Shown here: in pieces, positions 2,257 through 41,893 of the stretch
Numbering within the stretch: position 1 is the stretch's first letter
Layout: every line of letters begins with the position of its first letter
Assembly: GCA_016874735.1 (NCBI GenBank)
Contig: VGTI01000006.1
Location: 1 to 64,000, forward strand
Origin: Deltaproteobacteria bacterium
GTDB lineage: Bacteria > Bdellovibrionota_B > Oligoflexia > Oligoflexales > CAIYRB01
Reading direction: 5' to 3'
Length of the DNA: 64,000 bases
Notes under the pieces: model-generated
Told to the model about the DNA's origin: nothing
Databases searched by the model: none
What the model saw: the letters and a program-made list of their open reading frames with translations, nothing else
Translations under genes and position numbers: made by a program

Positions 2257-3216
2257 GTGAAAAACGCCTCGAATTCCAGCGACCTCGGTGAAGACACGGG
2301 CATCCGTGGGACGATCTTTCTCAACGACATCACATCGGTCGACTGCGCGATCTTTGACCCATCCAAGGGTATCTTTGGCCAGAGTTGGGACATCGACGTC
2401 ACACTGACGGGGACCTTGGGTGACAATGGCTTTGTCTTCGACTTCAGCCTGCTCAAAAAGATGGTGCGCCAGGTGCTCAAGACCAGCATCGATCACTCCT
2501 TAATCATGCCGATCAACTCCCAGGCCGTGCAGTTCCGGGGGATGGAATTCCGCGGTTCGGAAAAGAGTGAGTGGTGGCATATGAAGTCCCGATCGGGCAA
2601 GGTCGGTGCCGAGGGTGAGTGGGAATACCACAGCCCCAACGGCGCCGTATTCCCGGTCAGAAGCGTGGCCATCAACCGCCAAGTGCTCGAGCAGGAGATC
2701 GTCCGCAGCTTGCGCCACCGCTTGCCGCAGGAGATCATCAGCATCAGCGTCGCGCTGCGCGAAGAGGAAGTCGATCCCACCGAAGCAACCTTCCGCTACA
2801 CCCACGGCATCGCTGGCCACGAGGGTATGTGCCAGCGTCTTATGCACGGCCACCGGTCGCGCCTGCAGGTCTTTGTCGGCGAGGAGCGCCGCCCTGACCT
2901 TGAGCACTACATCGCCCGCGATGTCCTCGGCAATAATGTGCATATCGCCACGCCTGTGCAGTTCCGCAGCGGCGAAATTGCTCCCGGTACGCGCGGCAAA
3001 GGACGGGACCCTGTAGTTCTTGGCTACCAAGCGTCACAAGGCTATTTTGAGGCCACCCTGCCCGCCGAGCGGATCTTCTGCGTCGAGCGGGAGACTAGCA
3101 TCGAGTGTATTGCTGCCGAAGTGGCGCGCCTTGTTAAACGCGAGGAAAACACCAGCGAACGCGTGCGCGTGATCTGCTACGAGGGCATGGCCAAGGGTGC
3201 AATCGCCGAGTGCTGA
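2257..3216 (+). CDS. Tandem 6-pyruvoyl-tetrahydropterin synthase / QueD-like protein
   Basis: A 319-residue protein starting at GTG, about twice the length of an ordinary PTPS/QueD protein (120-150 residues). The N-terminal half keeps the mid-domain motif (VFDFS at 60-64, IDHSL at 78-82) but has GQS where the zinc-binding HGH should be (41-43). The C-terminal half keeps the zinc motif (C192, HGH at 197-199, with H183 and H188) but not the DFS/DH part. This reads as a fused or duplicated fold in which the active-site elements are split between halves. The cysteine spacing CX4HGH matches neither QueD (CX3HGH) nor the animal-type enzyme (CX5HGH). The likely role is pterin or deazapurine (queuosine) metabolism; the substrate is unknown. 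It overlaps the convergent amidotransferase gene by 40 bases. Confidence 0.75.
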   Translation: MKNASNSSDLGEDTGIRGTIFLNDITSVDCAIFDPSKGIFGQSWDIDVTLTGTLGDNGFVFDFSLLKKMVRQVLKTSIDHSLIMPINSQAVQFRGMEFRGSEKSEWWHMKSRSGKVGAEGEWEYHSPNGAVFPVRSVAINRQVLEQEIVRSLRHRLPQEIISISVALREEEVDPTEATFRYTHGIAGHEGMCQRLMHGHRSRLQVFVGEERRPDLEHYIARDVLGNNVHIATPVQFRSGEIAPGTRGKGRDPVVLGYQASQGYFEATLPAERIFCVERETSIECIAAEVARLVKREENTSERVRVICYEGMAKGAIAEC

Positions 3217-27588: not shown

Positions 27589-28389
27589 ATGACAACTGAA
27601 CCCGAATTCGCAACACTGATCGTTGACCAACAAGGCGCCGTCTGTCGCATCACCATTAATCGCCCCGATCATCTGAACGCGCTCAATACACAGGTGTTTG
27701 AAGAGCTAGAGCAAGTCCTTTACGGCGGCATGTTATCAGCCGACCAGACGCGCGTTTTGGTGCTTGAGGGAGCTGGGCAACGCGCCTTTGTGGCCGGTGC
27801 TGATATCGCGGCGATGCAGGCTTTCGCGCCAGAAGAAGCACGAGCCTTTGCCCGGACGGGGCAAATGATTACCAAGGCACTAGAGTCATCGCCTTTTGTG
27901 ACTGTCGCAAAAGTTCAGGGCTACGCGCTCGGTGGCGGCTGCGAACTCGCTATGGCTTGTGACATCGTCATCGCCTCGCGCAATGCCAAGTTTGGCCAGC
28001 CTGAGGTCAATCTTGGGCTGATTCCCGGATTCGGTGGTACACAGCGCCTGGTGCGTCGCGTCGGTATGCACGTGGCGATGGATATGCTGCTTTGTGGCCG
28101 TGGTCGGACCGTTAGCGGTACCGAAGCCCATCAGTTGGGACTTGCATCACGAGTGGTCGATGACGACAAGTTAGAGGCAGAAGTTGGCAAGGTGATTCAA
28201 GCAATACTGGCAGCCGGCCCGATGGCCGTGGCCGATTGTAAACGTTTGGTACGCGAAGCGTATGCTATGACTCTTGATGCTGGCCTAAATGCGGAGGCAA
28301 CGAGTTTTGCCCATTGTTTTTCGGGGAATGAGGCTGAGGAGGGAATCAGTGCTTTCCTCGATAAACGGAATCCAGCATTTACGCGGTAA
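27589..28389 (+). CDS. Enoyl-CoA hydratase
   Basis: A 266-residue crotonase-fold enzyme that hydrates trans-2-enoyl-CoA to 3-hydroxyacyl-CoA. The oxyanion-hole stretch is AFVAGADIAAM (about 65-75), and a second is YALGGGCELAMACD (about 110-123). A catalytic Glu is in GLIPGFGGTQRL (about 142-153 region, with Glu in QPEVNLG). GAGG precedes the ATG. With the dehydrogenase just upstream it forms a short beta-oxidation or butyryl-CoA-type unit; thiolase and acyl-CoA dehydrogenase are not in the window. Confidence 0.93.
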   Translation: MTTEPEFATLIVDQQGAVCRITINRPDHLNALNTQVFEELEQVLYGGMLSADQTRVLVLEGAGQRAFVAGADIAAMQAFAPEEARAFARTGQMITKALESSPFVTVAKVQGYALGGGCELAMACDIVIASRNAKFGQPEVNLGLIPGFGGTQRLVRRVGMHVAMDMLLCGRGRTVSGTEAHQLGLASRVVDDDKLEAEVGKVIQAILAAGPMAVADCKRLVREAYAMTLDAGLNAEATSFAHCFSGNEAEEGISAFLDKRNPAFTR

Positions 28390-28410
28390 CTAAAGAAGTG
28401 CCCTAAGAAC

Positions 28411-28440
28411 TTGACCGACAAGGCAAGTCGCCTTAACAAT
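28411..28440 (+). promoter_or_regulatory. Possible vegetative promoter of the histone-like gene
   Basis: TTGACC (28411-28416) and AACAAT (28435-28440) with 18 bases between resemble a sigma-70 promoter. The -10 is weak. A short inverted repeat AAGGC/GCCTT lies inside the spacer. It would give a leader of about 55 bases before the ATG at 28497. Confidence 0.35.
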
Positions 28441-28496
28441 AGAAATGGATTTTATTAGTTTAGTGCCGCCGTCAGCCTTAAAGGAGTACCAAGACT

Positions 28497-28928
28497 ATGG
28501 CAATCGAAAAACCCCTGAGCGATTTCTTGAGTAACTTTCAAAAAGACGTTAAGCAGCTTCAAAAGAAGATCAAGCAAGAGACAGATCATCTGGTCAGTAA
28601 GGCAAAGACGGCTGCAAACAAGGACAGCATCCAAGCCAAGCGCCAGGAAGTCGAGCACCTGGTTGAGCAAAAGCTGAAGAAGCTGGAGCCCACCATCAAC
28701 CGCTTCGTTCACGAGCTCAACAACACCGCAAAAAAGGCTGGACTCGATCTGACCGACCTCGAAAAGAAAGTGCGTAGCAATCTCGCTACCGCTCGCGGTC
28801 GTCTCGGCAAGTCCGCTGCCAAGGGCAAGAAAGCTGGCGCCAAGGCCAAAAAAGCTGCACCTAAAAAAGCTGCCGCTAAACGCCCTTCTGCGCGTAAAGG
28901 TGATGCTGGAGCTGCAAGCGAAGCGTGA
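28497..28928 (+). CDS. Histone H1-like Lys/Ala-rich protein
   Basis: A 143-residue protein. The N-terminal 100 residues are charged and probably coiled-coil (many Lys, Glu and Gln with heptad leucines). The C-terminal 40 residues are a Lys/Ala/Pro tail with KKAAPKKAAAK-type repeats, as in bacterial H1-like and HU-tail proteins. Such proteins bind DNA or RNA without sequence specificity. AAAGGAG lies before the ATG. The stop overlaps the GTG start of mutY (GTGA), so the two are translationally coupled. Confidence 0.75.
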   Translation: MAIEKPLSDFLSNFQKDVKQLQKKIKQETDHLVSKAKTAANKDSIQAKRQEVEHLVEQKLKKLEPTINRFVHELNNTAKKAGLDLTDLEKKVRSNLATARGRLGKSAAKGKKAGAKAKKAAPKKAAAKRPSARKGDAGAASEA

Positions 28929-30085
28929 GTCTCAACTCTATTCAAGTGGCCAGCGCGAAGTCACCGCTTTTAGCGGTAGAAGATTTGCGCTGGCCATTTT
29001 CATGCCCCACGCCGCGTAAGTCCCTGCTCAACTGGTATCGGCGCCACAAACGCGATTTACCCTGGCGCTCCTTGTGGCAAAAGTCTGGTGATCCTTACGT
29101 CGTCTGGATCAGTGAGATCATGCTGCAGCAGACGGTGATTAAGGCCGTGATTCCCGTCTATCATCGATTCCTGAATCAGTTTCCGGACCTGAGCGCATTT
29201 GCAGCGGCTGACGAAGGTCAGGTACGTGAGGCCGTGCGTGGGCTTGGCTACTATCGGCGCTTCGGTTTCATGCACAAAGCCGCTCGTCAACTCGTAGACG
29301 CGGGTAGTGCGTGGCCGCAAACTTTTGCCGCCTGGAGGGCTCTACCTGGCGTGGGCGACTATACTGCAGCCGCGGTTAGCAGCATTGCCTTCGGCGTCGC
29401 CGAGGCCGTGGTTGATGGCAATGTCGAAAGGGTATTTTGCCGCCTTTTGGATCTACGGCTACCGCCGAATGAACCGCGGCTTAAACGCGCATTCAAGCGC
29501 CTAGCACAGCAGCTACTTGACCACGATCACCCCGGTGATTTTAATCAGGCAGTGATGGAGCTTGGTCAGACCATCTGTACCGTGGGCGAACCTAACTGTG
29601 CTGCCTGCCCCCTGAAACGACATTGCCTCGCCTATGAACGCAGCAGCCAATCGTTAGCGCCGGCGGCTAAAATTAAGTCGGGAGCACCCATCGATCGGCG
29701 CGCGCAACTTGTGATCCTGTTGCGAGACGGCAAGATTGGCCTCGTCGAAAGACCGGCTACCGCTAGATTTTTGCGTGGGACTGCCGGCTTCCTCACGATG
29801 ATAGACCACAACGAAGTCGCCATGCAGGCAGACGGATGGCCCGAGGATTCATCCCTGCAACTTTGGCTGCAAAAAAATCGCCAATCCATGAGCACAATCG
29901 GTAGGTTTAAGCACACGATTACGAAACATCGTATTCAGGTTGAAGTACTTGTGAGCGACCAGCACCCCAAGCTACACGCCATTAAATGGACACCGATCGC
30001 TGAAGTAGAGCGATCTTTGCTCGCTAATTTTGATCGCAAGGCTTGGCAACTGCTACATACCAAAAGACCCCACGCCAAGCATTGA
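28925..30085 (+). CDS. mutY: Adenine DNA glycosylase
   Basis: A 386-residue DNA repair enzyme that removes adenine mispaired with 8-oxoguanine. The catalytic Glu is in WISEIMLQQT (about 56-65). The helix-hairpin-helix is LPGVGDYTAAA (about 139-149), with catalytic Asp in AVVDGNVERV (about 158-167). The iron-sulfur cysteines are in CTVGEPNCAACPLKRHC (about 218-234). The C-terminal part is a NUDIX-like 8-oxoG recognition domain. The start is GTG at 28925, overlapping the stop of the histone-like gene; GGAG lies 14 bases upstream, which is distant. Confidence 0.94.
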   Translation: MSLNSIQVASAKSPLLAVEDLRWPFSCPTPRKSLLNWYRRHKRDLPWRSLWQKSGDPYVVWISEIMLQQTVIKAVIPVYHRFLNQFPDLSAFAAADEGQVREAVRGLGYYRRFGFMHKAARQLVDAGSAWPQTFAAWRALPGVGDYTAAAVSSIAFGVAEAVVDGNVERVFCRLLDLRLPPNEPRLKRAFKRLAQQLLDHDHPGDFNQAVMELGQTICTVGEPNCAACPLKRHCLAYERSSQSLAPAAKIKSGAPIDRRAQLVILLRDGKIGLVERPATARFLRGTAGFLTMIDHNEVAMQADGWPEDSSLQLWLQKNRQSMSTIGRFKHTITKHRIQVEVLVSDQHPKLHAIKWTPIAEVERSLLANFDRKAWQLLHTKRPHAKH

Positions 30086-30092
30086 GGTGATT

Positions 30093-31598
30093 GTGCCCAC
30101 GTCAGTTCTCACACTGAAAGTTCTCCATCTTGATGACGATCCGTTCGAACTTGAGCGCATCAAAACATCGCTGGAAAACCATGCCCTTGACTGTCAGTTC
30201 CAGGTGACCAGCGTGTCCAAACCTGGCGATTTTATCACTGCATTGGATCACGAGCCCGATGTGGTGATTCTCGACGTCCACATCAATGATGAGCACACCA
30301 ACGGCATTCAGCTAGCGGGTAGCACTAGAGAAAAACTACCAAGCACAGTGATTCTAATGTGCTCAAGTGCCGATGACGTGACGACTATCAAAAATTCTTT
30401 GAATGCTCAGGCTGACGACTTCCTATCAAAACGCTCCGATAGGGGCGAGCTCAGCCTCCGCGTGCTCAATTCTTATCAGTTAGCAAGTTTAAAGCGCCCA
30501 GCAAAAAAATCCCTGGCGGTTGCCAATTCTAAAAATGCAGACCAACCAGTGGGAGCGACGATAGCAAGTATTAGTGTGCGCATCCCGAGGCTACTTGATT
30601 CAGCTGTGTCGGCAGTTTTTATCAGCGGTGAATCGGGTACTGGTAAAGAGGTGGTGGCCGACTTGATAGGCCAGGCGCTGCATGAAGGCACCCCATTCAT
30701 AAAGGTAAACTGCGGCGCCATTACGCCAAGCCTGCTTGAAAGCGAACTTTTCGGGCACATCAAAGGAGCCTTTACTGGCGCCACTACGGACAAACGTGGA
30801 CTTTTAGAAAGTGCGTCTGGTGGCTGGATTTTCTTGGATGAAGTTGCAACACTTTCGCCTGCGGCACAAACCGCACTACTACGCGTCTTAGAGAATAAGA
30901 CTTTGCTACGCGTGGGGTCTCCTAAACCAGTTCAGGTAGACCTGCGCGTACTCTCCGCCACTAACGAGCCTCTCGCTGAGCTGGTCAAGCAAGGGAAATT
31001 TCGGGCCGACCTATGGCAGCGTCTACGCGAGACGGAAATTGTGCTGCCTCCCCTGCGGGAACGCCCTGACGAGATTCCGGCATTGGTCGCGCACTTTTGC
31101 GACACTATGGCCGGCGGGCCCTATACCATCAGTGGTCCAGCTCTCACGGCACTCTGCGGTGTTAGCTGGCGTGCAGGCAATATCCGCGAGCTGCGCAATT
31201 GCCTCAGAGCCATGACGGAGCAGCACGTCAACAAACTATTAACTCCGCTTGCCATACCTGAGCGTATCTGGGACGAAATCGGAGATCAGAGGCCCTCCAC
31301 TCAGGACCGCGTCGGCAGCCCGGACCCGAGATCCGACGGGCCTTCGGAGACTCGGGACCAGATCGTACTACCGTGGAGCGCGGACAGCCGTTATACTTAC
31401 GATTACCTCTGTGACTTGCTACTCCTTGACATCACCCGCAAGGTGGCAGATCGACCAGGTCGACTGTCGTTACGTGGATTAGCACAGACCATTGGCATGT
31501 CGCGAAGTACCCTATCGACTAGGCTCAAGGCACTGGTTCATCGCAACCTGATCTCCCTGCGCGAGCTGTCTCAGCTTGTAGGGATTAACGAGGTTTAA
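30093..31598 (+). CDS. Sigma-54-dependent response regulator (NtrC family)
   Basis: A 501-residue transcriptional activator. The receiver domain (about 5-125) has an acidic triad DDD at its start and the phosphoacceptor D61 in VVILDVH. The AAA+ domain (about 150-385) has Walker A GESGTGKE (about 179) and an intact GAFTGA loop (about 225) that contacts sigma-54. A DNA-binding helix-turn-helix (GLAQTIGMSRSTLSTRLKAL) ends the protein but is unlike the usual Fis type. GTG 30093 is chosen: GAGGTGA precedes it and it lies just after the mutY stop, whereas the longer frame runs into mutY. No partner histidine kinase is nearby. Confidence 0.92.
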   Translation: MPTSVLTLKVLHLDDDPFELERIKTSLENHALDCQFQVTSVSKPGDFITALDHEPDVVILDVHINDEHTNGIQLAGSTREKLPSTVILMCSSADDVTTIKNSLNAQADDFLSKRSDRGELSLRVLNSYQLASLKRPAKKSLAVANSKNADQPVGATIASISVRIPRLLDSAVSAVFISGESGTGKEVVADLIGQALHEGTPFIKVNCGAITPSLLESELFGHIKGAFTGATTDKRGLLESASGGWIFLDEVATLSPAAQTALLRVLENKTLLRVGSPKPVQVDLRVLSATNEPLAELVKQGKFRADLWQRLRETEIVLPPLRERPDEIPALVAHFCDTMAGGPYTISGPALTALCGVSWRAGNIRELRNCLRAMTEQHVNKLLTPLAIPERIWDEIGDQRPSTQDRVGSPDPRSDGPSETRDQIVLPWSADSRYTYDYLCDLLLLDITRKVADRPGRLSLRGLAQTIGMSRSTLSTRLKALVHRNLISLRELSQLVGINEV

Positions 31599-31602
31599 AG
31601 CA

Positions 31603-32169
31603 TTGTTAACAGATAAAATTCAGTTAAGCCGTATCCGGGTCAATGTCATTGTCGGCATCCTGCCCCCAGAGCGCCTGCTGCCGCAGCCGGTTGATATGAG
31701 TATCGATTTAAGCCTCGATTTAGAGGAGGCTGGACACAAAGGTGACTTGAGCAAGTCGATCGACTACTCAGAGCTGCTCAAGCAAGTTAGCTTCATTATG
31801 CACGCCGGACGCTTTGAGTTACTCGAAACGGCGGCCCTCGCCATCGTCCACTACCTACTTACTCCTACAGCGAATGGAGCCAAGGTCGAGCGCGCGCGCG
31901 TGAGTCTATGCAAAAGAAATGCGCCGCGCGTCAGTCCTGCCTTACCAAAAGTCACCATCACACGGGCCAGAGAGCAGGTTAAAACTACCGAAGAAAAACT
32001 GGGTGAAGTGACCGTCCAGCAGATTTTCGCCAGCAAATCTGTGGTGATTCAGAGGTTCACTGGTCGGAGCGCAGCGTATCCGACAGCCGAGATTCATCCT
32101 AAATTCAAATCCGAGGATCTTGACCTAGGAAACGGCAGTTTGCTGAGGGTCAGAGGGACGGCCGGTTAA
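31603..32169 (+). CDS. folB: Dihydroneopterin aldolase-like protein (FolB family)
   Basis: A 188-residue protein whose first 120 residues match the FolB/T-fold: RIRVNVIVGILPPERLLPQPV with a DYSELL segment near 48 and the ELLETAALAIVHYLL helix near 67-81. The catalytic Glu of the family (in the G-x-x-x-x-E part) corresponds to GILPPE. The last 65 residues are extra and unassigned. FolB converts dihydroneopterin to 6-hydroxymethyl-dihydropterin for folate. The start is TTG at 31603, four bases after the activator gene, so they are cotranscribed. It converges on the tetrahydrobiopterin operon, so pterin genes cluster here. Confidence 0.8.
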   Translation: MLTDKIQLSRIRVNVIVGILPPERLLPQPVDMSIDLSLDLEEAGHKGDLSKSIDYSELLKQVSFIMHAGRFELLETAALAIVHYLLTPTANGAKVERARVSLCKRNAPRVSPALPKVTITRAREQVKTTEEKLGEVTVQQIFASKSVVIQRFTGRSAAYPTAEIHPKFKSEDLDLGNGSLLRVRGTAG

Positions 32170-32188
32170 CGGGCCGAGCGACTGCCTA

Positions 32189-32968
32189 CTAAGTCGCTAG
32201 CATGCCCCCATCAACCGGCAATTCTACACCCGTGATCCAACCAGCTGCTTGACTGGCGAGGAACACTACAGCCCAGGCTATGTCTTCTGGTTGGCCCATC
32301 CGCCCAATCGGATGCAGTTTGTCTACATCGGGAACGCTCGCGAGGTAACTTTTTTCGTCAGGATAGCGGCCTCGGTACATAGGCGTATCGACTATCGCTG
32401 GCAGTACGGCATTGACCCGGATGCGTTCTGAACCCAACTCCAAAGCCAGAGTGCGCGTCAACTGCCCCAGCGCCGCTTTACTTGCGTTGTAGGCTGCCGC
32501 TCCAGGAATCGCTTTAATGGCTAGAGTTGAGCTAACGTTGATGACAGAACCACGACCTGACTTAGCCAAAAGATCAACCATACCTTTTGTGAGCATCACG
32601 GGGGCCAGGGCGTTGATATCGAAATTTTGCTGCCACTGACTAACGGTCAACTCACGCAGTGGTTGGCCGCCGAAATAGCCGGCGTTATTGACGAGCACAT
32701 CTAGCCGTCCTACGGCAACAACTTCGGCGATCACCCGCTGGCGATCCGTCTCAAGACTTAGATCGGCAGCGATCAGATGCGTCTTTGCCGTCCCTAGTTG
32801 CGCTACTGCGGCCTCAGTCCGCTCTAATTTGGCACGGTCACGACCTACCAAGATCAATGTCGCTACACCGCTGTGTGCCATAGCTTGTGCCGTTGCCGCA
32901 CCTATACCTGAGCCAGCACCGGTGATCAGCGCTGTGTAGCCACCTAGACTGAAGGGGGTCTGCATCAT
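32189..32968 (-). CDS. Short-chain dehydrogenase/reductase, candidate sepiapterin or dihydropteridine reductase
   Basis: A 259-residue classical SDR. The cofactor motif TGAGSGIG is at about 16-23, NNAG at about 92-95, a catalytic Ser in INVSS, and the YNASK catalytic pair near 160-164. It ends with GVELPVDGG as usual. Its start overlaps the pyruvoyl-tetrahydropterin synthase gene by four bases (ATGA), and the phenylalanine hydroxylase gene is upstream in the same operon. From this I infer a pterin reductase: either the final sepiapterin-reductase-type step of tetrahydrobiopterin synthesis or recycling of the oxidised cofactor. The sequence alone does not prove the substrate. Confidence 0.85.
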   Translation of the reverse strand: MMQTPFSLGGYTALITGAGSGIGAATAQAMAHSGVATLILVGRDRAKLERTEAAVAQLGTAKTHLIAADLSLETDRQRVIAEVVAVGRLDVLVNNAGYFGGQPLRELTVSQWQQNFDINALAPVMLTKGMVDLLAKSGRGSVINVSSTLAIKAIPGAAAYNASKAALGQLTRTLALELGSERIRVNAVLPAIVDTPMYRGRYPDEKSYLASVPDVDKLHPIGRMGQPEDIAWAVVFLASQAAGWITGVELPVDGGMLAT

Positions 32969-33387
32969 GACTGCCGCCGTTTACGGACACGGTTGCTCGC
33001 AGTCTCGTGCAATACGATTTCCTCGAGCACGACGTGAGGCGCCTCTTTTTTTAGGACCGCTTCAATACGTTGCCAAATTTTATCAGCAAACACCTCGGTC
33101 GTTGGGATAGCTCCCTTCATCCATGCCACATCGACGTTGAGATTCTTGTGATCGACATCAGCAATGACCTTCTCCTTAACAACCTCCTTGAGCTGCCGCA
33201 GATTCATGATCATACCCGTCTCATGGTCGAGGGGGCCAGTAACGCTGACCTCAAGAGTGTAATTGTGCCCGTGACCAGCGGGATTCGAGCAGAGACCAAA
33301 AACGGCCCGATTGTGCTCTTCGTCCCAATCCGGTCGGTAGAGTCGATGCCCACTACAAAACTCAAAAGCACGCGTGATAGTCATCAT
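32965..33387 (-). CDS. 6-pyruvoyl-tetrahydropterin synthase, CX5HGH (eukaryotic) type
   Basis: A 140-residue T-fold enzyme that converts 7,8-dihydroneopterin triphosphate to 6-pyruvoyl-tetrahydropterin. Zinc ligands are H14, H39 and H41, and the catalytic Cys33 stands in CSNPAGHGH, giving CX5HGH. This spacing is that of animal PTPS (type II); bacterial QueD has CX3HGH. VDHKNLN (about 98-104) and LHET near the end complete the active site. Location between phenylalanine hydroxylase and a reductase supports a tetrahydrobiopterin role over queuosine synthesis. The gene follows the hydroxylase by about 25 bases. Confidence 0.92.
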   Translation of the reverse strand: MMTITRAFEFCSGHRLYRPDWDEEHNRAVFGLCSNPAGHGHNYTLEVSVTGPLDHETGMIMNLRQLKEVVKEKVIADVDHKNLNVDVAWMKGAIPTTEVFADKIWQRIEAVLKKEAPHVVLEEIVLHETASNRVRKRRQS

Positions 33388-33411
33388 GTAAATCAGTCTC
33401 TCTTTCTCACG

Positions 33412-35175
33412 CTAGGCGTGATGAGCAGCCAGGGCTAGACCTTGTCGAATCAACCACTGTTTATCGGCCGCAGCTGTGGCTACCAGCCCACTCAAAAGCA
33501 TTTCGTTAGCTGGCAAGTCTACCCCGAGCTGCCGCGCTAGCTCAATGATCTCCAAATGCAATAACCACTCATCTGGGAATTTATTGCTAAAAATTGCGGC
33601 GACCTCTTTCAACCGTGCCACAAACCTGGACGCATCGCCTTTGTTACTCACCTGATCGCGTAACTGACGTACGGCATCATAAGCTTGAAAGATTGCAATC
33701 TCATCGCTAGTAAATGGCGAGGTGCGGGCTGGACTAGATTCCGCCGTACCCACATCATGCGCGCCGTAACGCTCAGCATCGCTCGGTCCACCGGCAACGG
33801 CCGTCACCAACTCGCCAACGGCCATGTCAAAATCGCCCCATGAGGGCTCGAAATACGTATCTTCACCGCGCTTGACGGTGCAATCCTTCCACTTGATAAT
33901 CACAAGATCCCCAGAGTCCCGCCGCAAAATCGAAGCTACCTGCCCAGTCACTTGAAATCCACTGGTCAGCATGAGAGTCGTATGGCTACCAACCTTGATC
34001 CCGAGCCGCTGCAAATCACTGTCTGTCGCCTTAGACAGAGGTCTGTCGCTCAGGCTTTGAGCGCGCCCCAAGGGGGTGCTGAAGCCACTCGGATGATGCG
34101 CCGTGCTCTGACCCGGTAATTCGGATCCACCAATCGCTAACTGCACGGGACCTTGCCACCGCATAAAGGCCACTTCCATGTGATCTGCTGGTGCAAACCC
34201 AGCTAGGACACCGCTGATCTCAATACCGGAATCCAGCGTAGTGGTCGTTACGGTGGCCCCAGCAATTCCCTGTTCAATAGCGTATTTGCCACCACGACGG
34301 TAGGATAGCGATTGTTCGAATTCCAGGAGTACCGCTTTGAGATGGTTGATATCCTCGGCAACGAAGAGTTGAGGTTGCGGTTCGGTTATGTCGTAGCTGG
34401 TATCGATACAGGCAAGCGTCAGGCGCAGTTTCTTAACTTTAGCGCTGAGACAAGATTGACTCTCGCCAACGGAGGACAACAGGCCAGCACCATATATTTT
34501 TGGTGCCTTGAGATCTCCTATCAATCCGTATTCGACAGTCCACCAATTCATCCGCGCCACCTTCGCGGCCTCGGACACATAAGTTATTGCGGCGGTTGCC
34601 GCCTGCAAGGCGGCTTGCGCTTCCTCAATCTGCCGCGGGGTGCAATCCGGATTTTCTTTAACATCAGATAGGCGCCGAATCGCTTCGTAGAGCTTGAGGT
34701 CTTCGCCCGAGAAAATAGCCTTTTTGGCCATTGCTGCGTACATCTGCAGATATTCAGAGTACTCTGGATTGGCCAGGATTGGTGCGTGACCGGCTGCTTC
34801 ATGCACGATATCAGGTGCCGGTGTATAGTGAATGTGGTCCACCGAACGCATATCCGAGGCTATCGGCAAAATACGCCGCGCCTGGAAATCGAGAAAGGCC
34901 GCGGGTGGGATAAAGCCCTGTACGGGCACAGCACCCCACCCTAGCTCGCGTAACCTTGCATCCATCTCCGCGATATGCGGAATGCGATCGGTAGTAATCC
35001 CAGTACGACGCAGCCCTTCAAGATAGATGGGCACCGCGTGCTCTTTAAAGTAATGCGTCGACTGCCGCATAATATAGCGCCAGCCGGCATGATCGCGTGA
35101 TGAGTATTTAGTTGGTTGCTGCTCAACACAGTACTTCTGGAGGTAAGCTGGTAGATTGGCAATCGTTCTATGCAT
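33412..35175 (-). CDS. Phenylalanine 4-hydroxylase with long C-terminal extension
   Basis: A 587-residue pterin-dependent aromatic amino acid hydroxylase. Iron ligands H125 and H130 are in PDIVHEAAGH and E215 in WWTVEYG. The catalytic domain occupies about 1-300 and has no regulatory ACT domain before it. The C-terminal part of about 285 residues has no recognised domain; it includes a beta-rich section (300-460) and a helical end. Ordinary bacterial enzymes are about 260-300 residues. It converts phenylalanine to tyrosine using tetrahydropterin and oxygen. It begins an operon with PTPS and an SDR, and a leader of about 40 bases separates it from pepA. Confidence 0.9.
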   Translation of the reverse strand: MHRTIANLPAYLQKYCVEQQPTKYSSRDHAGWRYIMRQSTHYFKEHAVPIYLEGLRRTGITTDRIPHIAEMDARLRELGWGAVPVQGFIPPAAFLDFQARRILPIASDMRSVDHIHYTPAPDIVHEAAGHAPILANPEYSEYLQMYAAMAKKAIFSGEDLKLYEAIRRLSDVKENPDCTPRQIEEAQAALQAATAAITYVSEAAKVARMNWWTVEYGLIGDLKAPKIYGAGLLSSVGESQSCLSAKVKKLRLTLACIDTSYDITEPQPQLFVAEDINHLKAVLLEFEQSLSYRRGGKYAIEQGIAGATVTTTTLDSGIEISGVLAGFAPADHMEVAFMRWQGPVQLAIGGSELPGQSTAHHPSGFSTPLGRAQSLSDRPLSKATDSDLQRLGIKVGSHTTLMLTSGFQVTGQVASILRRDSGDLVIIKWKDCTVKRGEDTYFEPSWGDFDMAVGELVTAVAGGPSDAERYGAHDVGTAESSPARTSPFTSDEIAIFQAYDAVRQLRDQVSNKGDASRFVARLKEVAAIFSNKFPDEWLLHLEIIELARQLGVDLPANEMLLSGLVATAAADKQWLIRQGLALAAHHA

Positions 35176-35217
35176 AGCAATACCTCCTCAAGTTGTGTCC
35201 GAGCAGCTAGCGACACA

Positions 35218-36741
35218 CTATTGGTTAAACTTCAAACAAGCGGCCACTAATGTGCGTAGACCGAACGTCGAACCGCCGCTCGCCGGATAACCTAAAGCTT
35301 GGCAGTTCCAACCTGTGCCGGCAATATCAAGGTGGACCCACTTAGAGGTACCGACGAACTCCTTCAAGAACAGGCCGCCCATGATGGTCCCGCCTTTGAC
35401 ACTGGGCTTGGCGATATTTTTGAGGTCGGCAACATCACCCTTGGTCTCTTTTTCCAGCTCTGGCCACAGCGGTAACTGCCACAAGGGCTCGCCCTCGGTT
35501 GCTCCTGCTTCGATAACAGTATGTGCAGCAGCTTGATCGTTGGACATGACTGCCGCACCAACGCATCCTAGCGCCATCAGCACGGCGCCCGTAAGGGTAG
35601 CAATGTCGATCGTCAGCTCGGGCTTGTATTCACTGATGGCATAGTGGAGTACATCCGCCAGAACTAGTCTACCCTCGGCATCAGTGTTGAGCACCTCGAT
35701 GGTCTTACCGTTCATCGCCCGGACCACATCGCCCGGTTTAGTGGCAGTGCCGGAAGGCATATTTTCGGTGGCACCGACTAAACAAACAACGCGCACCGGT
35801 GGCTTAACTCGTCCGAAATAATAGGCAGCTCCAAGCACGGCAGCACCGCCAGACATGTCGTACTTCATCTCCTCCATGCCAGCCGATGGTTTGATACTGA
35901 TACCACCAGAGTCAAAGGTAAGACCCTTGCCCACCAGTGCTACCGTGCGGCTGTTATCGTGCCCGTCAATTTCGATCACGATCGTGCGTGGCTCCGTGCT
36001 GCCTCCATCGGATACGCTCAGAAATGAGCCCATACCCAGCTTGGTCATCGCTTCTTTATCGAGAATCTTGGTCTTGAGGCCGGCCTCCTCAGCCATCTGC
36101 TTGGCAACCTCTGCTAGCTTGATGGGATTCATGTAGTTGGCCGGAGCGTCCTGCAAAAAGCGCGTAAACGCCTGTGCTTTGGCAAAAGCAAGATGCTGCG
36201 CCAGTAGCTCAGCCGAGACATCAGCACCCACCAGGCTAAGTTGCGCCGGGTAACGAGCCAGGTCCTTTTTCCGCGTTCCTTTGAAAGCGTTAGATGTGTA
36301 AAGACCACTGACGTAGCCGTCGAGAACTTCCGTGGCCGTCAGCCCATCTGCTGCCGCAAATGCGAGGTGCGCAATCTTGAGATCCTTGGTGGCTTTTGCC
36401 GCGTCGAGCCCAAGCTGCCGCGCTGTCTGCTTAGCATGCACTTTAACTGCCGACTGCGAGACCAAAGTGAAACCCGCCCCGTCGACGACCAAGTGCAGCG
36501 CACCGGCGCTCGGCTTCCAGCCCAAACCAGTCGCTGCCGCACTAATCTTGCGTACCAGCTCGCTATTGAGTTTCGGCGCGTTGATTACAAATGCATCCTT
36601 GTTGTCCTCATTGCCCTTCACGGCCACTATCGTGTGAGCGCCAGCGGCGGTTTCTGTGGCATGGAGCTGGACTTGGCCTAGCCAGTCGATGGTGTCGGGT
36701 AGAAGATTTTTCCAAGATTCCGATTGTAGAGCGTGGCGCAT
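35218..36741 (-). CDS. pepA: Leucyl aminopeptidase, M17 family
   Basis: A 507-residue cytosolic dimetal aminopeptidase. The M17 signature NTDAEGRL (about 354-361) is intact, and the metal-binding stretch VGKGLTFDSGGISIKP (about 272-287) is also present, including the active-site Lys. The N-terminal 170 residues form the regulatory domain. It removes N-terminal residues from peptides. It is followed closely by the phenylalanine hydroxylase gene in the same direction. The upstream 190 bases are shared with the divergent enolase gene. Confidence 0.95.
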   Translation of the reverse strand: MRHALQSESWKNLLPDTIDWLGQVQLHATETAAGAHTIVAVKGNEDNKDAFVINAPKLNSELVRKISAAATGLGWKPSAGALHLVVDGAGFTLVSQSAVKVHAKQTARQLGLDAAKATKDLKIAHLAFAAADGLTATEVLDGYVSGLYTSNAFKGTRKKDLARYPAQLSLVGADVSAELLAQHLAFAKAQAFTRFLQDAPANYMNPIKLAEVAKQMAEEAGLKTKILDKEAMTKLGMGSFLSVSDGGSTEPRTIVIEIDGHDNSRTVALVGKGLTFDSGGISIKPSAGMEEMKYDMSGGAAVLGAAYYFGRVKPPVRVVCLVGATENMPSGTATKPGDVVRAMNGKTIEVLNTDAEGRLVLADVLHYAISEYKPELTIDIATLTGAVLMALGCVGAAVMSNDQAAAHTVIEAGATEGEPLWQLPLWPELEKETKGDVADLKNIAKPSVKGGTIMGGLFLKEFVGTSKWVHLDIAGTGWNCQALGYPASGGSTFGLRTLVAACLKFNQ

Positions 36742-36825
36742 AGCGACCTTTCATTTAACCCGCAGGATGATTACGGACCCGAATCTACAAGATTGATCGA
36801 GGCAGAGCAAGGCGGCGACGAGGGC

Positions 36826-36854
36826 TTGAGACTTGGGCCGATACCGACTACAAC
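36826..36854 (+). promoter_or_regulatory. Probable sigma-70 promoter of enolase
   Basis: TTGAGA (36826-36831) and TACAAC (36849-36854) are separated by 17 bases, the optimal spacing. The start would be about 70 bases before the ATG at 36931. The spacer to pepA is otherwise without features. Confidence 0.5.
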
Positions 36855-36858
36855 TTAA

Positions 36859-39319
<2,461 letters not shown>

Positions 39320-39356
39320 AATCTATAAGCAAATACTAAATTGTCCTTACCCCCTC

Positions 39357-39383
39357 TCAAGTTCCTGCGCCGCCGGCCGAAAA
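39357..39383 (+). promoter_or_regulatory. Sigma-28-type promoter of the chemotaxis operon
   Basis: TCAAGTTC (39357-39364), 11 bases, then GCCGAAAA (39376-39383) match the flagellar consensus TAAAGTTT-N11-GCCGATAA at 6 of 8 and 7 of 8 positions with exact spacing. It is 40 bases upstream of the first gene. Chemotaxis genes are typical FliA targets, so this is a good candidate. Confidence 0.6.
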
Positions 39384-39422
39384 GCCTGTATGGGACAAGT
39401 CCTTTAACGGGAGTCGCTTGGC

Positions 39423-39932
39423 ATGGCTACGAACACAGTGGATTTCGGCAACCTGACGATCGAGATCCAACAATCTGCAAACGAGGTGGTGTATCGCTTT
39501 TGCGGTGAGGTCGACGAACACTTCCGCCAACGCGAAGTGCCGCGCATCGCTAAGCCCAACATAACCTTCATTCTTGAGGACGTAGCGACCTTTAATTCAT
39601 GCGGTATTCGCGAGTGGATATACCTCGTTCGCGAAATCGGCGACCTAGGCTCGCTCCGGTTCACGAGGTGTTCCGTGGCGATGATCGATCAAATCAATAT
39701 GGTACCTGACTCTCTCGGGAAGGGTGTGGTGGAGTCATTCTTTGCGCCCTACTACTGTGGTTGCGGAGGAGAGGTGAACCGCCTCATAAGCGTAGCCGAT
39801 AGCTTGAGTCACCTGGTATCAAAACACGCACCCGAATTTAAGTGTGAAAACTGCGGCAACACCCTGGAGTTCGACGCCCTTGAGGAGAGTTACTTTCTCT
39901 TCACCGAGGCCGTTATGCCCAAAGCCTCCTAG
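39423..39932 (+). CDS. STAS-like protein with Cys-rich (zinc-ribbon-like) C-terminus
   Basis: A 169-residue protein. Residues 35-100 have the layout of a STAS/anti-anti-sigma fold (TFILEDVATFNSCGIREW corresponds to the conserved loop where phosphorylated Ser normally stands). The C-terminal part has YYCGCGGE (about 108-115) and CENCGN (about 141-146), four cysteines likely to hold zinc. The pair of features suggests a small adaptor or partner-switch protein. It precedes CheA by about 45 bases in the same direction and is just downstream of the sigma-28 site. Confidence 0.6.
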   Translation: MATNTVDFGNLTIEIQQSANEVVYRFCGEVDEHFRQREVPRIAKPNITFILEDVATFNSCGIREWIYLVREIGDLGSLRFTRCSVAMIDQINMVPDSLGKGVVESFFAPYYCGCGGEVNRLISVADSLSHLVSKHAPEFKCENCGNTLEFDALEESYFLFTEAVMPKAS

Positions 39933-39976
39933 GGATCTCCCTTTTGACCAATCGAAAAGCCTACTGAGGTTCAGCC

Positions 39977-41893
39977 ATGAGCATGGATGCTCTCACTGCG
40001 ACGGCCTTCTCAGCACTAGCCAAACGCGATCTTCCGGCTCTTCACGGCAAGCTGGTGGCTCTCGCGAAACTACCACCGCAAAAAAGAGCTAAAGATCCGG
40101 ACCTGGCCTCACTAATCGATACGGCGATGGCATCGCTCCGAGCGCTGAGTGCCTGGGCTAAAGATGAACCTACGTCCGTGCCGCCACCGATCGAGATACC
40201 ATCTCAGATACCCGTCGTGACCACGTCCTCCACTTCTCCCGAGCTTTCACTCGACGACGATATCAAGCGGGATTTCCTAGCTAACGCGGATGACATGATG
40301 CAGCAAATAGCCACTGGGCTGCTGGACCTCGAACGAGTTGAGCTCAACCGAGACTCCTTGGACCGTATCTTTCGCGCCGCCCATAATCTCAAAGGCGCCG
40401 CAGGTATGCTCGGACTGCAAGTTATAGGTCAACTGACACACGCCTTGGAATCCCAATTTGATCGGCTCCGCCGTGGTGAGGTACGTCCAGATAGTAAGCT
40501 CATTGATCAGTTGCTGCACGACCTCGACCAAGTTAGGTCTGAAATTCAGACCATGAAAAATCCACCCATCCACACACTGCCCTCTGGTGACAGCCGCTTA
40601 CCCTCCTCTGCTACCGAGACCGAGGAAAACGGCACGATCCGTGTCGATCTCCAAAGGTTAGACAAGCTAGTCAATCTAGTTGGCGAACTGGTCATCGACC
40701 GCACTAGATTCGCCGCGATCGAGGATGATCTTCGCTCTTCGGAACTGAAATCGCGCCTCGGAAGTAAGATGAGCGAGACCCTTCAGCTCTTTGGGCGTCA
40801 TATGTCTGAGATTCATGACACCGTCATGAAAATCAGAATGGTACCTATCAGCAACGCCCTCACAAACATGCCCCGAGTTGTTCGCGATCTGAGTCGACAA
40901 CTTGGGAAAGGTCTGACCCTGGAACTTGCTGGTGAGCAAACCGAACTGGATAAAACCATAGTGGAGGCAATTGCTGATCCCCTACTGCACATAGTTCGGA
41001 ACGCCTGTGATCATGGGATTGAATCTAAATCGGAGAGGCTTGCCCTAGGCAAAAGAGAAGTTGGTCACATAAGTATCAAGGCCAAACAAGAGGGCAACCA
41101 AATTGTAATTACCGTCCGCGATGATGGCCGAGGCCTCAATGCCGATATGATCCGACGCAAAGCGATTGAACGAGGTATGATCGCACCTGACAGCAATCTT
41201 TCGCGCAAAGATCTCTTCAATATTATTTTTGAAAGTGGCTTCTCAACAGCCTCTCAAGTTACCGAACTCTCCGGCCGGGGCGTGGGTATGGATGTCGTTC
41301 GTCGCCAAGTCGCCAGGCTTAAAGGGGTGATCGACATTGACTCCGAAGTCGGACAAGGCACCGCGATCGAAATCCGCCTACCGCTTACTTTATCGATCCT
41401 GCAAAGTTTACTTGTTGAGGCACAAGGTCAAGTTTTCGCTATACCTTTGAGCTCAGTCATCGAGTCATTGCGCATTACTCCTGATGATATTCAGGTCATT
41501 GGTGATCAAGAGGTCATTAAGTGGCACGATCGCGTTCTACCACTGCTACACCTCCATAAGGCTATGGGTCTTGAGTATCGTGATGAAATTTCTTGGTACT
41601 CTCAGGCTCCACAGATCGACGCATCAGCCAAGCTCAAGGCACTTCGCATAGCAAGGCGTAAGGATCGCCTCTACGTAGTGATCATCGGCACTGGCGAGAG
41701 AAGGATCGGTATCGTCTGCGATCAGTTACTAAATCAGCAAGAGATGGTCATAAAGTCCCTTGGGCCTATTTTACAAAACGTCGCGTGTGTCGCCGGAGGG
41801 GCGGTACTGGGGCACGGTGAAGTGGTCCTGGTGCTGGACATTCCAGAGTTAGCTTCAACATTTCGCAGCCCACTCAGGAGACTGTCGGCATGA
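39977..41893 (+). CDS. cheA: Chemotaxis histidine kinase CheA
   Basis: A 638-residue kinase. The Hpt domain (about 95-190) carries the phosphorylated His136 in AAHNLKGAAG. An unusual N-terminal segment of about 95 residues precedes it, ending in a Pro-rich linker. Dimerisation and ATPase domains follow (HIVRNACDHGIE for the N box, DDGRGL and GRGVGMDVVR for the G boxes), and a CheW-like domain ends the protein. No CheY/CheB-docking P2 domain is evident between Hpt and kinase, where only a linker of about 40 residues is found. It receives receptor signals and phosphorylates response regulators. CheW overlaps its end by four bases. Confidence 0.95.
   Translation: MSMDALTATAFSALAKRDLPALHGKLVALAKLPPQKRAKDPDLASLIDTAMASLRALSAWAKDEPTSVPPPIEIPSQIPVVTTSSTSPELSLDDDIKRDFLANADDMMQQIATGLLDLERVELNRDSLDRIFRAAHNLKGAAGMLGLQVIGQLTHALESQFDRLRRGEVRPDSKLIDQLLHDLDQVRSEIQTMKNPPIHTLPSGDSRLPSSATETEENGTIRVDLQRLDKLVNLVGELVIDRTRFAAIEDDLRSSELKSRLGSKMSETLQLFGRHMSEIHDTVMKIRMVPISNALTNMPRVVRDLSRQLGKGLTLELAGEQTELDKTIVEAIADPLLHIVRNACDHGIESKSERLALGKREVGHISIKAKQEGNQIVITVRDDGRGLNADMIRRKAIERGMIAPDSNLSRKDLFNIIFESGFSTASQVTELSGRGVGMDVVRRQVARLKGVIDIDSEVGQGTAIEIRLPLTLSILQSLLVEAQGQVFAIPLSSVIESLRITPDDIQVIGDQEVIKWHDRVLPLLHLHKAMGLEYRDEISWYSQAPQIDASAKLKALRIARRKDRLYVVIIGTGERRIGIVCDQLLNQQEMVIKSLGPILQNVACVAGGAVLGHGEVVLVLDIPELASTFRSPLRRLSA

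Follow-up and report, generated by a model that had tools for sequence, protein, structure and literature searches.

The window (the whole stretch of 64,000 nucleotides that was analysed) contains three closely packed ORFs on the minus strand, from 35175 to 32189, in the order PAH (phenylalanine hydroxylase), PTPS (6-pyruvoyl-tetrahydropterin synthase) and SDR. This cassette lies on contig C6 of a 4.65-Mb genome. Its ORFs and immediate neighbours are:

33412–35175, minus strand: PAH, 587 aa, a long aromatic amino acid hydroxylase of the PRK14056 type
32965–33387, minus strand: PTPS, 140 aa, a 6-pyruvoyl-tetrahydropterin synthase of the PTPS-II type with the CX5HGH motif
32189–32968, minus strand: SDR, 259 aa, a classical SDR according to Pfam, motifs and orthologues in the genus
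32965–32968, minus strand: overlap of the PTPS stop and the SDR start, 4 nt, ATGA in the junction sequence
31603–32169, plus strand: FolB-domain protein (Pfam FolB, 75.8 bits), the convergent neighbour of the cassette
35218–36741, minus strand: M17 aminopeptidase, co-directional and 42 nt upstream of the cassette in the window

The PAH stop is separated from the PTPS ATG by 24 nt, and GAGGAGG precedes the PAH start. The first-pass annotation described these genes as one operon with a four-base overlap and about 25 bases between genes. The ORFs and their Pfam domains (Biopterin_H in PAH, PTPS in PTPS, adh_short/adh_short_C2 in SDR) agree with this description, and the overlap and the gap were found as described. 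A search for riboswitches or other known RNAs yielded no Rfam match across positions 28000–40000.

PTPS and SDR lie immediately behind the long PAH in all six genomes of the window's genus, and SDR orthologues are found in the operon of each member (6/6). As it is conserved in all six genomes, the linkage of PAH, PTPS and SDR is not due to chance. The cassette faces FolB in the window and in genomes G014, G016 and G017. In G015 and G018, the whole cassette is turned round in its place between FolB and the M17 peptidase: FolB, PAH, PTPS and SDR are co-oriented there, while FolB, the M17 peptidase and enolase retain their mutual orientation. That the three genes flip together strongly suggests that they form the unit. 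The M17 peptidase was rejected as a fourth operon gene, as in G015 and G018 it runs opposite to the cassette. FolB was also rejected as part of the system: each genus genome carries a single copy, and this gene lies on the opposite strand in the window, scores as FolB rather than FolX and is probably a folate-pathway aldolase outside the unit. The contigs that match the genus are from uncultured lake-sediment and freshwater bacteria, and Fluviispira and Spirobacillus belong to the same class.

The PAH matches the NCBIfam model NF010657 (PRK14056) with 646.9 bits (cut-off 346) over residues 5–584, and its full-length match in the PDB is 7vgm (E 2.7e-127). The predicted iron ligands are His125, His130 and Glu215 (PDIVHEAAGH and TVEYGL, aligned with 7vgm), and the protein carries a C-terminal extension of ~290 aa. 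PAH of some kind is present in 46 of the 58 genomes of the phylum, and among the PTPS proteins examined in the phylum, single-domain CX5HGH PTPS occurs just in the window's genus and in Silvanigrellales. This means that most PAH-containing genomes of the phylum, which lack PTPS-II, must depend on a different pterin or obtain it by a different route. Two Spirobacillus-type genomes (G050 and G051) contain PTPS-II and had no PAH match. A second, divergent aromatic amino acid hydroxylase of 291 aa, scoring well under all NCBIfam cut-offs, is encoded at G000:C28 (L148 7097–7972), where it adjoins an FAD monooxygenase-like protein and a lipocalin; several genus members also have short hydroxylase paralogues. 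Most genomes of the phylum have PAH and no match to prephenate dehydrogenase, and in those genomes PAH may be the tyrosine route.

The PTPS contains the motif CSNPAGHGH (C33-SNPAG-H39-G-H41), which confirms the CX5HGH motif with Cys33, His39 and His41 that had been noted at first pass. CX5HGH is the signature of PTPS-II, whereas CX3HGH marks QueD (PMC5041015). The CX5HGH spacing is shared by animal PTPS and by bacterial PTPS-II (Synechococcus PCC 7942). The best PDB matches of the window PTPS were rat PTPS (6.6e-29) and human PTPS (1.9e-28), followed by a third, worm-like PTPS chain, 2g64 (1.9e-20); E. coli QueD was far behind (3.8e-7). Residues H14/H39/H41, C33/D79/H80 and E128 align with rat His23/48/50, Cys42/Asp88/His89 and Glu133, the zinc ligands, the catalytic triad and the pterin-anchoring residue of the rat enzyme, respectively, and they are invariant in an alignment of eleven relatives. 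The window PTPS thus matches the PTPS-II subfamily of COG0720 in its zinc and catalytic residues, its overall length and its closest solved structures. It differs in being in an operon with PAH and not beside FolE, and it has ~40–53% identity to the PTPS-II of other lineages.

In a PTPS phylogeny of 137 columns, a PTPS-II side of 84 rows was parted from seven CX3HGH/QueD rows with a support of 98/87. The genus formed its own clade, and its nearest relatives by path were Silvanigrellales PTPS-II, while the animals were placed elsewhere in the tree. As the alignment has 137 columns and a grouping of the genus with animals was not rejected (AU test, p 0.23), the order within PTPS-II is unsure. 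Holding the genus and the CX3HGH rows together gave an AU p of 0.30; this constraint only shifts the root within PTPS-II, so that the value is silent on QueD membership. The phylogeny with animal and QueD sequences that had been proposed as a check thus groups the PTPS with bacterial PTPS-II and not with QueD. The description as 'animal-type' holds for the CX5HGH subfamily and implies no special closeness to animals, as the nearest relatives are bacterial. It names a subfamily rather than a transfer from animals, and PTPS-II is already known in bacteria. Gene transfer from animals is unsupported, given the bacterial relatives, although the AU test did not reject a sister relation to animals.

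It seems scarcely credible that the PTPS is a QueD-type enzyme for queuosine synthesis that lies beside PAH by accident. The two enzymes share one superfamily, and the QueD model scores the window PTPS at 65.8 bits, under its cut-off of 89.25. However, the five-residue spacing of CX5HGH, the PDB ranking, the tree position and the conserved linkage to PAH all argue against such a role. Moreover, no real match to QueC was found in the six genus genomes, with just a 28-bit fragment in a 696-aa frame, whereas the same search succeeded at 1e-58 to 1e-60 in G007, G009 and G010. A genome that has no QueC is unlikely to use this PTPS as QueD, and QueD identity was ruled out by motif, PDB ranking and missing QueC. 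The prediction that the window PTPS is a PTPS-II enzyme without a queuosine role is therefore well supported by its motif, its full active site, the PDB ranking, the tree and the lack of QueC. Spread on plasmids was rejected, as the plasmid search returned just a weak QueD match. The window also encodes a 319-aa tandem PTPS-like protein (2257–3216, plus strand) beside gltX and a glutamine amidotransferase. Its first half has no zinc motif and its second half has CX4HGH (CQRLMHGH), with CX3HGH in its Silvanigrellales relatives. This protein is present in most genomes of the phylum and scores under the curated PTPS and QueD cut-offs.

A scan of named genomes for PTPS-II identified 80 loci, 75 of which are outside the window's genus, in Nitrospinota, Gemmatimonadota, Zixibacteria, Ignavibacteria, Sumerlaeota, Parachlamydiaceae and others. 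At 51 of these 75 loci, GTP cyclohydrolase I (FolE) is encoded in the same stretch, and in the Ignavibacteria-type loci FolE is followed by one or two SDRs. This ties PTPS-II to the first biopterin step and supports a role in cofactor synthesis. PAH was found at none of the 75 loci within the stretch examined around each, and of 35 whole PTPS-II genomes that belong neither to the genus nor to the class of the window, just two contain PAH of any kind. As PTPS-II is rarely accompanied by PAH elsewhere, the direct link to PAH is the unusual part of the window operon. The Ignavibacteria-type PTPS-II-FolE-SDR-SDR clusters resemble it in the linkage of SDR genes to PTPS-II; unlike it, they contain FolE, and 33 of the 35 genomes of the wider set have no PAH.

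FolE is present in two copies in the window's genome (C1 and C91). The second copy was rejected as a dedicated first enzyme, as no such copy was found in G014 or G017 and genomes without PTPS-II have one. No pterin-4a-carbinolamine dehydratase (PCD) was found in the six genus genomes by a search that finds PCD elsewhere in the phylum, which leaves recycling of the cofactor unexplained. In Silvanigrellales, weak Pterin_4a matches lie inside open frames of about 340–400 codons, which may encode divergent or fused dehydratases. The genus encodes a prephenate dehydrogenase (fused to chorismate mutase in the window's genome), so that tyrosine supply is independent of PAH, and homogentisate dioxygenase is also present, with a partial match alone in G016. 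Given these two enzymes, the flux probably serves phenylalanine and tyrosine breakdown as much as tyrosine supply.

The SDR has the motifs TGAGSGIG at 16, NNAG at 94, NVSS at 144 and YNASK at 160, with GRD at 42 after beta-2 and an intact Ser-Tyr-Lys. This fold, the Ser-Tyr-Lys and the NADPH site fit sepiapterin reductase, but as they are common to very many SDRs they do not discriminate. Among named models, the SDR comes closest to glucose 1-dehydrogenase/FabG-like ones, and its best 60 PDB matches (E<=1e-30) include no sepiapterin reductase. An SDR from the Ignavibacteria clusters, on the other hand, has Chlorobium sepiapterin reductase (2bd0, 6.2e-34) among its matches, along with many other SDRs; in an SDR tree made with a quick method and showing long branches, the window SDR was not near the SDRs of these clusters. 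Outside the genus, the SDR has a single close homologue, encoded in G022 (E 1.3e-55 at 40% identity, against ~1e-37 for the next best), which shares the segments SSTLAxK, HPxGRxG and GWITG..LPVDGGML. It is the last gene in a row (L183 6682–9422) that encodes an ExxHGH PTPS-like protein, FolB and a Vut_1 transporter, and no FolE was found in G022. The two different pterin contexts of these homologues suggest a pterin substrate, without specifying which one.

On this evidence, the SDR is a candidate either for the final reduction that yields tetrahydrobiopterin or for recycling of the cofactor. This SDR, of the classical FabG/glucose-dehydrogenase type, is the weak step of the predicted pathway. 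The earlier proposal that it serves tetrahydrobiopterin synthesis is consistent with its place in the operon and with its homologue in a pterin cluster, whereas no specific relationship to sepiapterin reductase was recognised. Alternatively, PTPS could make the precursor while the SDR recycles the oxidised cofactor as a substitute for quinonoid dihydropteridine reductase, with other SDRs or aldo-keto reductases reducing 6-pyruvoyl-tetrahydropterin. The lack of PCD in the genus and the many SDR paralogues in the genome are in keeping with this, and the Ignavibacteria-type clusters, in which two SDRs lie beside PTPS-II and FolE, make two SDR roles plausible. However, the SDR shows no sequence feature of dihydropteridine reductase and the gene order fits synthesis equally well, and we consider recycling by the SDR unlikely.

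A further alternative is that tetrahydromonapterin is the cofactor of PAH, as it is in Pseudomonas, and that the PTPS-II product has another use, for instance for a pigment or for a different oxygenase like the second hydroxylase paralogue at G000:C28. The many PAH genomes of the phylum without PTPS-II would fit such a division, as would the 33 of 35 outside PTPS-II genomes without PAH, which show that PTPS-II has other uses. The Pseudomonas and E. coli tetrahydromonapterin route (FolX and FolM, with PhhA/PhhB) likewise combines a bacterial PAH, a pterin cofactor and an SDR-type reductase. However, with one FolB-type gene per genome there is no separate FolX for tetrahydromonapterin, and PhhB is also lacking in the window's genome, which has PTPS-II instead. 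The motif of FolM, PTR1 and PruA is TGX3RXG (PMC13259868), and the window SDR does not carry it, with Gly replacing Arg in TGAGSGIG (16–23). As the operon with PAH is also conserved, use of tetrahydromonapterin is very improbable.

The reading that we favour is self-supply of the cofactor: the operon probably couples phenylalanine hydroxylation to the synthesis of the cofactor that the reaction requires. From a gene outside the operon, GTP cyclohydrolase I would make 7,8-dihydroneopterin triphosphate, which PTPS-II would convert to 6-pyruvoyl-tetrahydropterin; the predicted steps up to this point are well supported by sequence. The SDR would most likely reduce the side chain to give tetrahydrobiopterin or a close relative, with which PAH, iron and oxygen would convert phenylalanine to tyrosine. 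The same reactions can be assigned as in the mammalian tetrahydrobiopterin pathway (GCH1, PTPS and sepiapterin reductase) with PAH, with FolE encoded elsewhere. Unlike in mammals, the SDR is not recognisable as a sepiapterin reductase, no carbinolamine dehydratase was found, and PAH is of the long bacterial type. From the conserved operon we infer a cofactor supply dedicated to PAH, as the first-pass annotation had proposed, although GTP cyclohydrolase I lies elsewhere and PCD was not found. The glucose 1-dehydrogenase/FabG-like affinities of the SDR also weigh against self-supply, as does the rarity of PTPS-II among the PAH genomes of the phylum, which indicates that the PAH family can use another pterin.

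All parts of the operon belong to known families; the direct linkage of PAH, PTPS-II and SDR is rare in bacteria, and the arrangement is new. In bacteria, biopterin is regarded as a rare pterin (PMC13259868). Tentatively, biopterin synthesis may have been captured into a PAH operon in this genus, which could point to biopterin-dependent phenylalanine breakdown, to recycling without PCD and to the classical SDR as a reductase of a new kind that forms or recycles biopterin, a possibility that we hold with some reserve. It is often uncertain which pterin serves bacterial PAHs in the cell, and this compact operon would allow the question to be addressed with few genes in E. coli.
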